Shown: piece after piece, positions 35,182 through 40,361 of the stretch
How positions within the stretch are numbered: the first letter of the stretch is position 1
Layout of the letters: each line of letters starts with the position of its first letter
Assembly: GCF_009761675.1 (NCBI RefSeq)
Contig: NZ_QUZH01000028.1
Location: 1-64,000, forward strand
DNA length: 64,000 nt
Reading direction: 5' to 3'
From: Bhargavaea sp. CC-171006
GTDB lineage: Bacteria; Bacillota; Bacilli; Bacillales_A; Planococcaceae
Program-made: the position numbers and the translations under genes
The notes under the pieces: generated by a model
Told to the model about the DNA's origin: nothing
What the model saw: only the letters and a program-made list of their open reading frames with translations
Database searches by the model: none

Positions 35182-36939
35182 TTATCCGGTCTTCCCCGCA
35201 GCCTGTGAGCCCGCCTGCAGCTTATACATCTGCGCATACTGGCCGTCGTAGGCGAGCAGCTGGTCATGGGTGCCGAGCTCGACAATCTCTCCGCGGTCCA
35301 GCACGATGATGCGGTCCGCGTTTTTGATCGTAGACAGCCGGTGGGCGATGACGAATGTCGTCCGCCCCTTTTTCAGGACATCCATCGCATGCTGGATGAT
35401 TTCTTCCGTCTCGGTATCGATGTTCGACGTCGCCTCATCGAGGATGAGGATCGCCGGATCAAAGGCGAGCGCCCGGGCGAATGAGATCAGCTGGCGTTGC
35501 CCGGCGGACAGGGTGCTGCCCTTTTCCACGACCGGCTCGTCGATCCCGCCCGGAAGGTTCTTCAGCACCCGGTCGCCGCCGACGGCCTCTAGTGCGCTTT
35601 CCACAACTTCCCGGGATATCCTCGGGTCGTCCAGGCTGATGTTCGACCCGATCGTTCCGGTGAACAGATACGGATCCTGGAGGACGATGCCCATATGGTC
35701 CCTTACTGTCTGTCGGGACAGTTTGGTGATATCGGTGCCGTCGATGACGATCCTTCCCTTTGTCGGGTCGTAGAACCGGAACAGCAGGTTCATGATCGAA
35801 CTCTTGCCGGAACCGGTATGGCCGACAAGTGCCACCGTCTCACCCTGTTTCGCCTCAAAGTCGATTCCTTTCAGGACATACTCTTCATCTTTGTAGGCGA
35901 ACCAGACTTCCTCGAACCGGACGTTCCCCCGGTAGCGGGCGATCTTCTCGTCGCTCACGTCCTCCCCTTCCTGATCGAGCAGTTCGAAGACCCGCTCAGC
36001 CGCGACAAGCGAATGCTCGAGGCGGGAGAACTGGTTGACGATGCCCGTGATCGGGTTGAAGAGTCGCGTGATGTAGTCGACGAACGCGTAAAGTGCACCG
36101 ACGGAGATCGCCGCAGGAGCGGAGATCGCCACATTGCCGAAGTACAGGATGAACGCGATGAACGTCATCGACCTGAGGACGTCGACCAGGTTGAACGACG
36201 TCGCCGAGTCGAGGAACAGCAGCTTATTGTTGTACTTAAAGTGCTCGTCGTTCAGCTCATCAAATTCCTGTTCCATCTGCTTTTCCCGGCGGAAAGCCTG
36301 GATGATCGTCATGCCCTGGATGGCCTCGTTGATCATCGCGTTCAGGTCACTTACCTTGCCGCGGATGATCCGGTTATATTTGGAGGCGTACTTCCTGTAG
36401 GAAATCATCCAGATGTAAAGCACTGGAATGAGCAGAAGCGTGATCGCTCCCATTGCCGGCTCAAGATAGATCAGCGCGGCGAGGATCCCGATCATGTACA
36501 TGCCGCTTGTCGCAAACTGGGACAGCACCGTGACGTACATGTCCCGGATCGCTTCCGTGTCGTTTGTGATACGTGCAACGACTTTGCCCGCCGGCAGGTT
36601 GTCAAAGTAGCGGACCGGAAGTGTCTGGATCTTGCCGTACACTTCGTTCCGCATCTTCTGGATGATGCGGTTCGCTCCTCTCTGGAGGAGCAGGTATTCC
36701 ATGTAGCGGAATACCGCCGTGACCACTGCCAAGCCCATGAAGACCGCAAGCAGCATCAGGATCGGGGCGAATTCCATCCCGCCTCCTTCACTGCCGGCGA
36801 TGTGGTCATCGATGATCTTTTTTGCAATCAGCGGTCCGGCAAGGTCAGCCGCGACAGCGAGTGCCAGGCAGATCACGCCGGGAATGACATACCGTTTCTG
36901 GTCCGTCGCATAGCGCACCAGACGTTTTCCCTTACTCAT
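35182..36939 (-). CDS. bmrD: Heterodimeric multidrug ABC exporter subunit, BmrD/YheH-like
   Basis: 585 residues: six-helix exporter domain, then an ATPase domain with GHTGSGKSS (Walker A), LSAGQRQL (signature, altered from LSGGQ) and ILILDEATSNID with the catalytic Glu. The ATG at 36939 follows GGGGAGGTGG; the open frame extends further but within bmrC. It overlaps bmrC by eight bases. The canonical Glu here and Asp in the partner match the asymmetric BmrC/BmrD pair. Confidence 0.85.
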   Translation of the reverse strand: MSKGKRLVRYATDQKRYVIPGVICLALAVAADLAGPLIAKKIIDDHIAGSEGGGMEFAPILMLLAVFMGLAVVTAVFRYMEYLLLQRGANRIIQKMRNEVYGKIQTLPVRYFDNLPAGKVVARITNDTEAIRDMYVTVLSQFATSGMYMIGILAALIYLEPAMGAITLLLIPVLYIWMISYRKYASKYNRIIRGKVSDLNAMINEAIQGMTIIQAFRREKQMEQEFDELNDEHFKYNNKLLFLDSATSFNLVDVLRSMTFIAFILYFGNVAISAPAAISVGALYAFVDYITRLFNPITGIVNQFSRLEHSLVAAERVFELLDQEGEDVSDEKIARYRGNVRFEEVWFAYKDEEYVLKGIDFEAKQGETVALVGHTGSGKSSIMNLLFRFYDPTKGRIVIDGTDITKLSRQTVRDHMGIVLQDPYLFTGTIGSNISLDDPRISREVVESALEAVGGDRVLKNLPGGIDEPVVEKGSTLSAGQRQLISFARALAFDPAILILDEATSNIDTETEEIIQHAMDVLKKGRTTFVIAHRLSTIKNADRIIVLDRGEIVELGTHDQLLAYDGQYAQMYKLQAGSQAAGKTG

Positions 36940-38680
36940 GGTGATCCACCTCCCCGATCTGCTGCCGGTCGAATTGTTCACGGTACCAGCCGCCCGCTTC
37001 CAGCAAGGAATCGTGCGTTCCTTCCTCGGTGACTTTGCCGTCTTCAAGTACGATGATCCAATCGGCATGCTCGATCGCCGACAGCCTATGTGTCGTGATG
37101 ATTGTCGTCTTATCTTGCCGGCCCTGCCGGATGTTTTCGATGATTGCCGTCTCGGTCTTGGCATCGACCGCCGACAGCGAGTCATCAAGGATCAGGATGT
37201 CCGGATCCTTGATCAGTGCCCGGGCAATGGAGATCCGCTGTTTCTGGCCTCCTGAGAGTGCAACGCCCTTTTCACCGACAAGCGTTTCCAGGCCCTGCGG
37301 CAACATTGAGAGATCCTTTCGGAAATGCGACAGGCGGATGGCTTCATCGATATCCGCATCGGTCGCGTCCGGCTTGCCGAACAGGATATTGTCCCGGATG
37401 GACCGTGAAAACAGCACATGATCCTGCGGCACATAGCCGATCCAGTCCCGCACTTCGTCTTTCGTCAGGTCACTGACAGAGACACCGGAAAAACTGAGTT
37501 CACCGTCTCCTGCCGGATATTCCCGGAGAAGCTGGCGGACGAACGTCGTCTTTCCGCTGCCGGTTTTCCCTACGATTCCGAGCGTCCCGCCGCGTTCGAG
37601 TCGGACTTTCACCCGGTCCAGGTTGACCGATGAGGACTGCGGATAACGGAATGTCACATCATTGAAAGTCACGTCATCCGGCTGACCAGCCCGTTTCGGC
37701 CGATCCGGGTCCCTCACGTCTTCCAGATAGGATAAGGTTTCGTGTACCCGGTCAAGGGAGGCATTCCCCCGCTGCATGACGTTGATCAGTTCGCCGATTG
37801 CGATCATCGGCCAAACGGCCATTCCGAGATAGACGTTGAACGTGACGAGGTTGCCGAGCGTCATCTCGCCGGTCGAGACGAGAAAAGCACCGTAGCCGAG
37901 GCCGATTGCGTAGCTGGCCGCGGTGAGCACTTTCGATGTCGGCGCAAACAGCGCATCGATCCGTTCGACCGCCATGTTCTTCTCGTACACTTCTTCCGTT
38001 TTCTTCCTGAACTTTTCTTCAGTCGCGCGTTCCTGGACGTATGCCCTGACGACCCGGACTCCCGCAACCGCCTCGAGCACGTCATCGTTCAGGTCGCCGA
38101 AAGCGTCCTGTGCGACGACGTACCGCTCGTGGATTTTCTTGCCGAGCACCTGCATGATGATCGCCAGGATCGGAAGCGGCAGGATGGCCGCCAGTGTCAG
38201 CTTCCACGAGACGAGGAAGCCGGCCGTCAGCAAGATCGTCGCCAAATAAAGCGTCGAGTCGATCAGCGTCATGATGCCGAACCCGGCCGTTTCAGAAATT
38301 GCACGCAGGTCGTTTGTCGAGCGGGCCATCAGATCGCCGGTCCGGTTCTTTTCGTAGAAAGTCGGAGTCATTTTCAGGAAGTGCTTCATAAGCCGGCTCC
38401 TGAGAACACGTTCGATCACATTCGCCCCGCCGAACAACTGGTATTGCCAGATAAAGTTCGAGGCGTAATTGACGGCCATGACGAGGACCATCACGCCGGC
38501 AAAGGTCATGAGCAGCCCTTCTGTCATATCGCCGCGGTACATCGTGTCGATCGCCCGGCCGATCAGCCATGGCGGTACGACGACGAGGATGTTGGTGAAG
38601 GTGAGCAAAATCAGTGCCACCGTGTACCGCTTCCAGTTCTCCTTGAAGAACCAGTTCAGTTTAAATAAGACTGAGAACAT
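36932..38680 (-). CDS. bmrC: Heterodimeric multidrug ABC exporter subunit, BmrC/YheI-like
   Basis: 582 residues (YheI of B. subtilis is 585). Exporter domain with SWKLTLAAILPLPILAII, Walker A GKTGSGKTT, signature LSGGQKQRI, and LILDDSLSAVD, where the catalytic Glu is replaced by Asp. This degenerate site is the known feature of BmrC. AGAAGGG lies seven bases before the ATG. In B. subtilis the operon is induced by translation inhibitors through a leader (bmrB); the leader here is annotated separately. Confidence 0.87.
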   Translation of the reverse strand: MFSVLFKLNWFFKENWKRYTVALILLTFTNILVVVPPWLIGRAIDTMYRGDMTEGLLMTFAGVMVLVMAVNYASNFIWQYQLFGGANVIERVLRSRLMKHFLKMTPTFYEKNRTGDLMARSTNDLRAISETAGFGIMTLIDSTLYLATILLTAGFLVSWKLTLAAILPLPILAIIMQVLGKKIHERYVVAQDAFGDLNDDVLEAVAGVRVVRAYVQERATEEKFRKKTEEVYEKNMAVERIDALFAPTSKVLTAASYAIGLGYGAFLVSTGEMTLGNLVTFNVYLGMAVWPMIAIGELINVMQRGNASLDRVHETLSYLEDVRDPDRPKRAGQPDDVTFNDVTFRYPQSSSVNLDRVKVRLERGGTLGIVGKTGSGKTTFVRQLLREYPAGDGELSFSGVSVSDLTKDEVRDWIGYVPQDHVLFSRSIRDNILFGKPDATDADIDEAIRLSHFRKDLSMLPQGLETLVGEKGVALSGGQKQRISIARALIKDPDILILDDSLSAVDAKTETAIIENIRQGRQDKTTIITTHRLSAIEHADWIIVLEDGKVTEEGTHDSLLEAGGWYREQFDRQQIGEVDHHE

Positions 38681-38699
38681 TGGTTATCCCTTCTCTCCA

Positions 38700-38718
38700 T
38701 GGCGGGGACTACCCGCCT
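38700..38718 (-). promoter_or_regulatory. Hairpin containing the stop codon of the second leader frame
   Basis: On the minus strand GGCGGG and CCCGCC form a six-base stem with the leader TAG in the loop, about 20 bases before the bmrC start. A ribosome finishing the leader would open it. Confidence 0.55.
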
Positions 38719-38771
38719 TCTTTAGATTCCTTGACGAGAATTTTCCGTTCTTTTGTGATGCACATCACCAT
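38709..38771 (-). CDS. Putative leader peptide 2 of the bmrC operon
   Basis: 20 codons, starting MVMCITKERK and ending KESKEGG, preceded by GGAGAGGAG. It ends 29 bases before bmrC. Very basic, no membrane segment, no family. Its short length, good initiation site and a stop inside a hairpin suggest a regulatory leader rather than a functional protein. Confidence 0.45.
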   Translation of the reverse strand: MVMCITKERKILVKESKEGG

Positions 38772-38836
38772 TTCTCCTCTCCGGTTTTTGTTTTGTATTC
38801 AGCACGCATTTGCGCGGTGATACCTGAAAAAGGCAT

Positions 38837-38866
38837 AAAAACGCGCCCCCGAATCATGGAGGCGCG
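38837..38866 (-). terminator. Leader terminator 2 upstream of bmrC
   Basis: Minus-strand CGCGCCTCC (38866-38858) pairs with GGGGGCGCG (38850-38842) with one mismatch, followed by TTTTT. It lies inside the bmr leader, so it is a candidate attenuator. Confidence 0.8.
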
Positions 38867-38873
38867 CTCAATG

Positions 38874-38902
38874 AAAAAGGGTCCGGCAGGCATGCCGGAC
38901 CC
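38874..38902 (-). terminator. Leader terminator 1 upstream of bmrC
   Basis: Perfect 10-bp stem GGGTCCGGCA/TGCCGGACCC (38902-38879) and TTTTT on the minus strand, 26 bases after leader frame 1. The ten bases CATGCCTGCC within it are repeated inside leader frame 1 (plus strand 38944-38953 and 38885-38894). Confidence 0.85.
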
Positions 38903-38927
38903 TTGTATCGACACTGGTGCCGCGAAA

Positions 38928-39002
38928 TTACGGCCGCAGTGCGGGCAGGCATGGCGATATGCAATTGTTGTCGAGTCCGAGTTGAATGATCATGTTGTAC
39001 AT
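38928..39002 (-). CDS. Putative leader peptide 1 of the bmrC operon
   Basis: 24 codons: starts MYNMIIQLGL, contains NNCISPC and ends ALRP. AAGGGAGG lies eight bases upstream of the ATG, the strongest initiation signal in the leader. It is followed after 26 bases by a strong terminator and begins 40 bases after the likely transcript start. Analogous in position to bmrB of B. subtilis, but no sequence similarity is claimed. Confidence 0.55.
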   Translation of the reverse strand: MYNMIIQLGLDNNCISPCLPALRP

Positions 39003-39041
39003 CGTCCATACCTCCCTTCCGTTGGTTTTGTTTTCCTTAAC

Positions 39042-39071
39042 AGACTACCCTTGCGGATCAGTCCGTGTCAA
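39042..39071 (-). promoter_or_regulatory. Probable promoter of the bmr leader
   Basis: Perfect TTGACA (39071-39066), 18-base spacer, TAGTCT (39047-39042), reading on the minus strand toward bmrC. The -10 is weak, the -35 perfect. Confidence 0.55.
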
Positions 39072-39167: not shown

Positions 39168-40361
39168 TTACAGGAATACATGGAGCAGTGCACCGAGCAC
39201 GCCTGCCACCGCCACAACGACCCACGGGGGTGACTTCCTGAACTGGAGCAGCCAGAAACAGAGCGCAGCCACTGCTACATCCCATACCGAAAAGATCGAA
39301 CTCGGGATGACCGGGTTGATCAATGCAGCCGCGAGAATCCCGACGACCGCGGCATTGACGCCGACCAGCGCGGCCCTAAGCCAGGTTTTCCGGCGGAGTA
39401 CCGACCAGAACGGCAATGTTCCGACGACGAGGAGGAACGACGGCAGGAACATCGCGACAACCGCGATGAGCGCGCCCGGCACGCTGTCCATGATCATCCC
39501 TATGTATGCCGCCAGGGTGAAGAGCGGTCCCGGCACGGCCTGAGCGGCACCGTAGCCCGCAATGAATGTCTCCGCGTCCATGTATCCTTGCGGCACCACT
39601 TCCCGCTCAAGCATCGGAAGGACAACGTGGCCGCCTCCGAAGACGATCGAGCCGACACGGTAGAAGATATCGGTGATCGATACGAGAATATGATCAGTGG
39701 TCTGCCGTAGCAGAGGCAATAGCGCAAGCAGGGCGAAGAACAGCCCCCATGCCACCGCACCGGCCTTTTTCCCGATCGGCATCGGGATGGCCGCTTCTTC
39801 ACCGCCGTTCCCTTCATTGCGGTTCCGATATAGGATATAACCGATGAGACCGGCCAGGACGATGATGCCGATCTGGCCCCAGGCAGTCGGCACGAGAAGG
39901 ACGCCGGCCGCAGCAAGCGCGGCAAGCGCCATTCTCGGAATGTCCGGTGTCAGATTTTTGCCCATTCCGATCAGTGCGTGGAGAATAATCGCGACCGCGA
40001 CAATCTTCAGGCCGCGGATCCATCCGGTGTCGAACGGCACATCACCAGCAACAAGATATGCAAACAGCATGAGAATGATGACAGACGGCATCGTGAAACC
40101 GAACCACGACAGCATCGCCCCTCCGATGCCGCCGCGGATCAGGCCGACTCCGATGCCGACCTGTGAACTGGCAGGTCCCGGAAGAAACTGGCATAGCGCC
40201 ACCAGATCAGCGTAGGCCCGGTCATCAAGCCATTGCCGTTTTTTGACGTATTCATCCCTGAAATAACCGAGATGGGCGGCAGGCCCCCCGAACGACGTCA
40301 GGCCGAGCTTAAGCGACGCCGACAGGATTTCGCCATACCACCCTCTTTCCTTCTTTTCCAT
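39168..40361 (-). CDS. chrA: Chromate transporter ChrA (two-domain)
   Basis: 397-residue CHR-family exporter made of two homologous halves. The first contains GLTSFGGPAAHLGYFRDEYV and QFLPGPASSQVG; the second contains GGGHVVLPMLEREVV and AQAVPGPLFTLAAYIG. About ten hydrophobic segments. AAGGAG lies seven bases before the ATG. The long-chain form typically exports chromate in exchange for another anion; physiological substrate may differ. It is upstream of, but separated from, the bmr leader. Confidence 0.9.
   Translation of the reverse strand: MEKKERGWYGEILSASLKLGLTSFGGPAAHLGYFRDEYVKKRQWLDDRAYADLVALCQFLPGPASSQVGIGVGLIRGGIGGAMLSWFGFTMPSVIILMLFAYLVAGDVPFDTGWIRGLKIVAVAIILHALIGMGKNLTPDIPRMALAALAAAGVLLVPTAWGQIGIIVLAGLIGYILYRNRNEGNGGEEAAIPMPIGKKAGAVAWGLFFALLALLPLLRQTTDHILVSITDIFYRVGSIVFGGGHVVLPMLEREVVPQGYMDAETFIAGYGAAQAVPGPLFTLAAYIGMIMDSVPGALIAVVAMFLPSFLLVVGTLPFWSVLRRKTWLRAALVGVNAAVVGILAAALINPVIPSSIFSVWDVAVAALCFWLLQFRKSPPWVVVAVAGVLGALLHVFL

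Follow-up and report, generated by a model that had tools for sequence, protein, structure and literature searches.

The leader of the bmrCD operon in the window, meaning the whole 64,000-nt stretch of DNA that was analysed, is very probably a trp-type transcription attenuator operated by the ribosome, in which three mutually exclusive helices (1:2, 2:3 and 3:4) decide whether the operon is read. Beyond its two terminators lies a second, separate upstream ORF (uORF2), and an explanation in two layers, the attenuator followed by uORF2, is likely as a whole. bmrCD serves as a model system for the way antibiotics induce efflux. The data suggest that a leader ORF in the wrong frame was assigned in the model organism, they define the conserved switch helices, and they bring to light a second uORF that is widely conserved, has a stop codon that hardly varies and was not found in the literature searched. 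The occurrence of an invariant UAG beside a selected C-terminal motif makes translation termination a testable regulatory step.

Organization of the locus and comparison set

The leader is encoded on the minus strand in the order TTGACA promoter, uORF1, terminators T1 and T2, uORF2, bmrC and bmrD. The bmrC orthologue (36932-38680, minus strand) encodes a 582-aa half of a heterodimeric ABC multidrug exporter and adjoins the bmrD orthologue (35182-36939, minus strand), which encodes the partner half-transporter; a domain search identified ABC_membrane plus ABC_tran in each protein. The best PDB match of BmrC is YheI/BmrC of B. subtilis (E 6e-243). The genome belongs to Bhargavaea (Planococcaceae), and its nearest named relative is Bhargavaea massiliensis, whose BmrC is 98% identical. 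Orthologues of both BmrC and BmrD of the bmrBCD system are therefore present, in agreement with the initial annotation, which had assigned the leader to a BmrCD-type exporter. A second BmrC-like half-transporter (44% identical) is encoded elsewhere in the genome (G000:C19:153554-155272), and a uORF2 profile gave no match near that gene. The leader occupies the gap between bmrC and a gene for a two-domain ChrA-type chromate transporter lying upstream of it (39168-40361, minus strand).

The promoter (39042-39071, minus strand) comprises the −35 box TTGACA (39071-39066), already recognized in the initial annotation, and the −10 box TAGTCT (39047-39042), separated by a spacer of 18. In sister Bhargavaea leaders, TTGACA and GGTAGTCTGTTAA align with this promoter; a generic promoter scan of the window did not call it, and the weakness of the −10 box counts against the model. 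The whole leader folds better than its shuffled versions (z −4.8), and no Rfam leader family scored above its gathering score at either the window locus or the B. subtilis locus.

The comparison covered the regions upstream of bmrC orthologues, with 150 loci from the family and class of the window and 30 from the genus Bacillus; among the latter, L160 was taken as B. subtilis, since its BmrC shows 100% identity with the B. subtilis protein of known structure. Within the family, uORF1 (SD plus start) was found at 102 of 110 loci and uORF2, by the motif used, at 91 of 110. Covariation was tested on 83-92 non-redundant leaders by permutation without modelling phylogeny, a qualification that applies to all the covariation scores below.

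The switch helices and the terminators

As expected of an attenuator, a short leader ORF with its own SD lies between the promoter and the first terminator. This ORF, uORF1 (39002-38928, minus strand; 24 codons, MYNMIIQLGLDNNCISPCLPALRP, stop TAA), is preceded by the SD GGAAGGGAGG at 39020-39011, exactly the 24-codon frame first described. T1 (38904-38877, minus strand; −23.5 kcal/mol, z −5.7) consists of a 12-bp stem with a 4-nt loop followed by T5 (U-run 38878-38874); the initial annotation had correctly placed a terminator with T5 here but had counted only 10 bp in the stem. The second terminator with T5 that it listed is also present: T2 (stem 38867-38841, reaching 38837, minus strand; −20.0 kcal/mol, z −4.3) has a 10-bp stem, a 7-nt loop and U5, and was missed by a simple terminator scan but is visible in the MFE fold. 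The arms of T2 covary among non-redundant leaders (z −18), and intrinsic terminators ahead of the operon, as represented by T1 and T2, are conserved.

Three segments of the minus strand make up the switch together with the 3′ arm of T1: region 1 (39002-39017), the uORF1 Shine-Dalgarno sequence up to its AUG; region 2 (38942-38958), a late uORF1 segment that can pair with region 1 or region 3; and region 3 (38893-38904), the 5′ arm of T1, which is the antiterminator partner of region 2. The sequence CATGCCTGCC occurs twice in the 64 kb, at 38953-38944 and 38894-38885 (expected 0.11; none of 100 shuffles contained two copies), and the suggestion that this repeat marks two competing regions holds, with region 2 and the 3′ arm of T1 both pairing with the 5′ arm of T1.

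Regions 1 and 2 covary strongly across 92 non-redundant leaders (z −14.8 without modelling phylogeny; 0 of 20000 permutations), with a mean pairing energy of −14.7 kcal/mol for a leader's own pairs vs. −11.0 kcal/mol for permuted ones. For this test, the uORF1 SD of each leader was paired in silico with late uORF1 of its own and of every other leader; the unbiased form, in which the whole late-uORF1 segment is left free in own and swapped pairs alike, is to be distinguished from the value for SD1 and region 2 in the all-against-all map, which is favoured by the way region 2 was cut out. The sequences of regions 1 and 2 illustrate the covariation: GGGAGGTATGGACG and CGCCATGCCTGCCC in the window, GGAGGTACG and CGTACCTGCC in L052, GGAGGTATGA and TCATACCTTCC in L018, GGAGGGTTTGC and GCAAACCTTTT in B. 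subtilis, and GGAGAGTTTGACG and CGTCAAACCTGTCC in L013. Region 2 likewise covaries with the 5′ arm of T1 (z −6.4) and with the whole stretch as far as the T1 loop (z −10.6), both by permutation with phylogeny not modelled. When 14 leader segments are mapped all against all, no pairings are conspicuous other than 1:2, 2:3 and the stems of the two terminators. Thus, the anatomy of the leader and its covarying 1:2, 2:3 and 3:4 helices are shown by comparison at the level of sequence.

When the window leader is folded as transcribed up to and including the T1 loop, a ribosome placed on the uORF1 start gives a mean 2:3 pairing of 0.47; naked RNA, or a ribosome farther along uORF1 or on its stop, gives 0.00 to 0.01. 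After the whole of T1 has been made, equilibrium folding prefers it in every ribosome state, which counts against the model, and the switch must therefore be decided during transcription. The initial annotation had named covarying stems in related genomes and folding with and without a ribosome on uORF1 as checks on a ribosome-controlled transcription attenuator; both came out in its favour, in that anti-antiterminator, antiterminator and terminator helices that exclude one another are supported by covariation and by state-dependent folding in an anatomy that is conserved.

What the ribosome appears to report is its position. The same checks had envisaged a conserved uORF1 peptide, but pN/pS is about 0.93 in Bhargavaea, which is near-neutral, and at least 0.77 in every genus where it was computable; the uORF1 sequences differ among genera, and the conserved leader peptide of a drug- or peptide-specific arrest leader is absent. 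The features that are kept are the SD, the start and the pairing segment (region 2), so that what would matter is the holding of a ribosome on the start or close to it, rather than a peptide-specific stall. Since the peptide is not conserved, uORF1 probably senses ribosome position. This reading fits the induction by several 50S inhibitors in B. subtilis (PMC4191407), and it fits the vmlR leader, in which a stall at initiation is enough and variants of the uORF sequence still work (PMC9226507).

From these elements, we infer the following order of events and drug response. Region 1, at the SD and start of uORF1, would pair with region 2, which could alternatively pair with region 3, and regions 3 and 4 would form T1. 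When the uORF1 start is cleared normally or uORF1 is not translated, helix 1:2 would form, or the ribosome would cover region 2, and T1 would then form, with T2 as a backup, so that transcription stops. A translation inhibitor would hold a ribosome at or near the uORF1 start and keep region 1 covered; helix 2:3 would then form, T1 would be prevented, T2 would be passed and the operon would be read. The peptide sequence of uORF1 would be irrelevant to this first layer. A covarying link of T2 to T1 or region 2 was considered as a route past T2 and rejected, as the leader map contains none; the all-against-all map shows no covariation of T2 with T1, region 2 or any other switch region, and this counts against the model.

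The second leader ORF

uORF2 (38765-38709, minus strand) comprises 18 codons, MCITKERKILVKESKEGG, ends in UAG (TAG at 38711-38709) and has the SD GGAGAGGAG at 38782-38774. The frame had been noticed initially as one of 20 codons; its start at 38771 was most likely set two codons early, because the start at 38765 is conserved in the genus and beyond and is better spaced from the SD. The hairpin that had been described with the uORF2 stop in its loop, GGCGGG-UAGUC-CCCGCC (38701-38717, minus strand; −12.5 kcal/mol), is real in the window and occurs in most Bhargavaea, but no covarying stem was found there across the wider set: a search for a stem around the stop shared between genera gave none, and in the leader segment map uORF2 covaries with no RNA stem.

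Selection on uORF2 is visible in its peptide. Its pN/pS is as low as 0.07 in Bhargavaea and lies between 0.07 and 0.47 in six other genera; in one genus, g14, it reaches 0.93. Conservation is concentrated C-terminally, where the peptide ends mostly in L/I/M/Y-[ED]-[GSDN]-[GD] (core form L-[ED]-[GSD]-[GD]), and the N-terminal half varies freely. In the last codons, positions 1 and 2 are strongly constrained and the third is free (1.99 bits at the third base of the last Gly codon). The stop codon is no less constrained. In 54 of 54 non-redundant leaders outside Bacillus it is TAG, followed in 50 of the 54 by T or C; as an internal control for stop-codon bias, the uORF1 stops of the same leaders are TAA in 22, TGA in 24 and TAG in 8. 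Within the family, all 91 uORF2 stops are TAG and no genus is mixed, whereas the controls vary: uORF1 stops are mixed in 11 of 17 genera, and bmrC ends in TAA in 18 cases, TGA in 10 and TAG in 2. By this comparison of sequences, selection on uORF2 is shown both for the peptide, where it is purifying, and for the stop codon.

The conservation has limits that count against the model. The Bacillus uORF2 stop is TGA, TAA or TAG depending on the species group, and since many Bacillus species use TGA or TAA, UAG is not universally needed. uORF2 is also absent from some genera, being found at none of six loci in g9 and two of seven in g10. In g9 (L024, L025 and L093-L096), uORF1 and the terminator are kept. 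Three loci (L026, L117 and L092) have divergent uORF2-like ends (YVRDD, YVRDG and SMDPD, respectively) that fall outside the motif, with TAG still next.

The distance from the end of uORF2 to bmrC is 15-43 nt in nearly all species (median 33). An exception, at 198 nt, is L022, which carries an insertion of about 165 nt relative to the usual spacing of about 33 nt; its sisters L097-L099 have short spacing. In profile searches, significant matches to uORF2 lie only before bmrC (E up to 0.006; next 0.06), and none was found ahead of other genes in 41 genomes. Two functions suggested by the position and the end of the peptide were rejected: readthrough of the stop into bmrC, as the spacing does not keep one frame (counts of 26/14/27 modulo 3), and a double-glycine export leader, as -GD, -SG and -DG ends are also common beside -GG. 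No description of uORF2, including that of B. subtilis, was found in the openly accessible literature.

Possible roles of uORF2

uORF2 would be produced only from readthrough RNA, a median of about 33 nt before bmrC. Its conserved nascent-peptide end lies at the presumed stall site, as in arrest peptides, and uORF2 quite possibly acts in cis at termination: termination may be slow or conditional, and the waiting ribosome would most likely tune bmrC translation or mRNA lifetime. It is tempting to go further, although this is more speculative, and to regard uORF2 as a new class of cis-acting termination-stage sensor, in which L-[ED]-[GSD]-[GD], UAG and a pyrimidine make RF1 release slow or drug-sensitive and so provide a second, post-attenuation checkpoint for bmrCD, the published bmrB being a mis-assigned frame.

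Alternatively, the attenuator might be the only regulatory layer and uORF2 the first gene of the operon, encoding a very small trans-acting protein with, for instance, the exporter as its target. Peptide-level selection as strong as a pN/pS of 0.07 and the strict linkage to bmrC are what would be expected of such a protein, but it leaves unexplained the invariant UAG with its following pyrimidine and the concentration of conservation at the C-terminus beside a free N-terminal half. We consider it unlikely; selection on the stop codon goes together with that on the end of the peptide, and for this reason we favour a cis role at termination. Less probable still is a translational attenuator of the ermC or cat-86 kind, in which a drug-stalled ribosome on uORF2 opens a stem hiding the bmrC RBS. 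Such leaders have a conserved stem over the RBS, yet the bmrC RBS region has no covarying partner, no conserved or covarying stem was detected that involves the end of uORF2, the start of bmrC or the spacer between them (best z −1.7), and the uORF2-bmrC spacing ranges from 15 to 198 nt. These results outweigh the position of uORF2 just before bmrC, the hairpin around the Bhargavaea stop and the slight rise in openness of the bmrC RBS, from 0.50 to 0.58, when a ribosome is parked on that stop. Almost no credence can be given to the idea that these are unremarkable tandem terminators in an intergenic region where short ORFs have arisen by chance. Such ORFs and hairpins are indeed common, and the leader does lie in the gap between the chromate-transporter gene and bmrC, but this explanation is already contradicted by the comparative data: in many genera the elements recur in the same order with their SDs, and covariation and selection at the codon level are seen as well.

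The leader ORF of B. subtilis

In B. subtilis, experiments showed that lincomycin induces the operon, that the leader has to be translated and that a terminator plays a role; the published model comprises a bmrB frame of 53 aa and a single terminator (Reilman et al., 2014, PMC4191407). The B. subtilis sequence (L160) contains a 23-codon uORF1, MPRNLRVYQTVSYWRGKPFVLFS, with a strong SD and the region 1:2 pairing, as well as a uORF2, VKTNTEARAVRAKLDEKSCKEKIEGG, that ends 17 nt before bmrC and is not mentioned in the excerpts of PMC4191407 on this leader. The annotated bmrB (GTG, 53 codons), 281 nt upstream of bmrC, overlaps uORF1 in another frame. In the window, no 53-aa frame of this kind overlaps the terminator, and uORF1 ends before T1.

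It is very unlikely that the 53-codon frame, which extends across the terminator, is the real leader ORF and uORF1 incidental. In the published work, a plasmid-borne in-frame BmrB-GFP fusion fluoresced in B. subtilis and a leader without the bmrB GTG lost lincomycin induction, but a chromosomal BmrB-GFP fusion gave no signal (PMC4191407). The start mutant, moreover, carried four further 5′-UTR changes that removed alternative starts or RBSs (PMC4191407), and it therefore cannot separate bmrB from uORF1. Among 11 species of the B. subtilis group, six have a bmrB that lacks the GTG or is truncated ahead of the terminator, whereas the SD and ATG of uORF1 are intact in all 11. Given that bmrB is out of frame with uORF1 and disrupted in about half of the sister species, uORF1 is probably the true leader ORF in B. 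subtilis and bmrB a mis-annotation. The initial annotation had regarded the tandem terminators and the second uORF as more elaborate than the described leader. This contrast does not fully hold: B. subtilis has both uORFs, and at least two terminator-like hairpins are present in 48 of 92 non-redundant leaders, so it is the published description that is incomplete.

Relation to known leaders

In trp-type attenuation, three mutually exclusive helices (1:2, 2:3 and 3:4) are read out by the position of the ribosome. The bmrCD leader has the same set of helices; it differs in that region 1 is the SD of the leader ORF itself, so that the switch also closes its own translation start, and in that it would respond to inhibition of translation, not to an amino acid. 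In stop-codon arrest leaders of the tnaC type, a conserved C-terminal peptide ends at a defined stop codon. uORF2 shares this arrangement but follows the terminators, has a different motif and UAG, and its arrest is presumed. The vmlR leader of B. subtilis resembles the bmrCD leader in having a uORF inside an anti-antiterminator stem, antibiotic-responsive in vmlR and predicted to be so in the window, an antiterminator and a terminator, and differs in its 3-codon uORF, a stem sequestering the vmlR SD, a single terminator and the lack of a second uORF (PMC9226507). With the B. subtilis bmrBCD leader (PMC4191407), the window shares an orthologous transporter pair, a leader ORF, a terminator and, probably, translation-dependent attenuation, and with the B. 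subtilis sequence it shares the order uORF1, SD pairing, terminator and uORF2; in place of the 53-aa bmrB and one terminator of the published model, it has a short uORF1 in another frame, two terminators and a separate conserved uORF2. The number of hairpins varies further within Bacillus, where several leaders with a TAA-ended uORF2 (L178-L184) have uORF1 separated from uORF2 by three or four terminator-like hairpins in a row.
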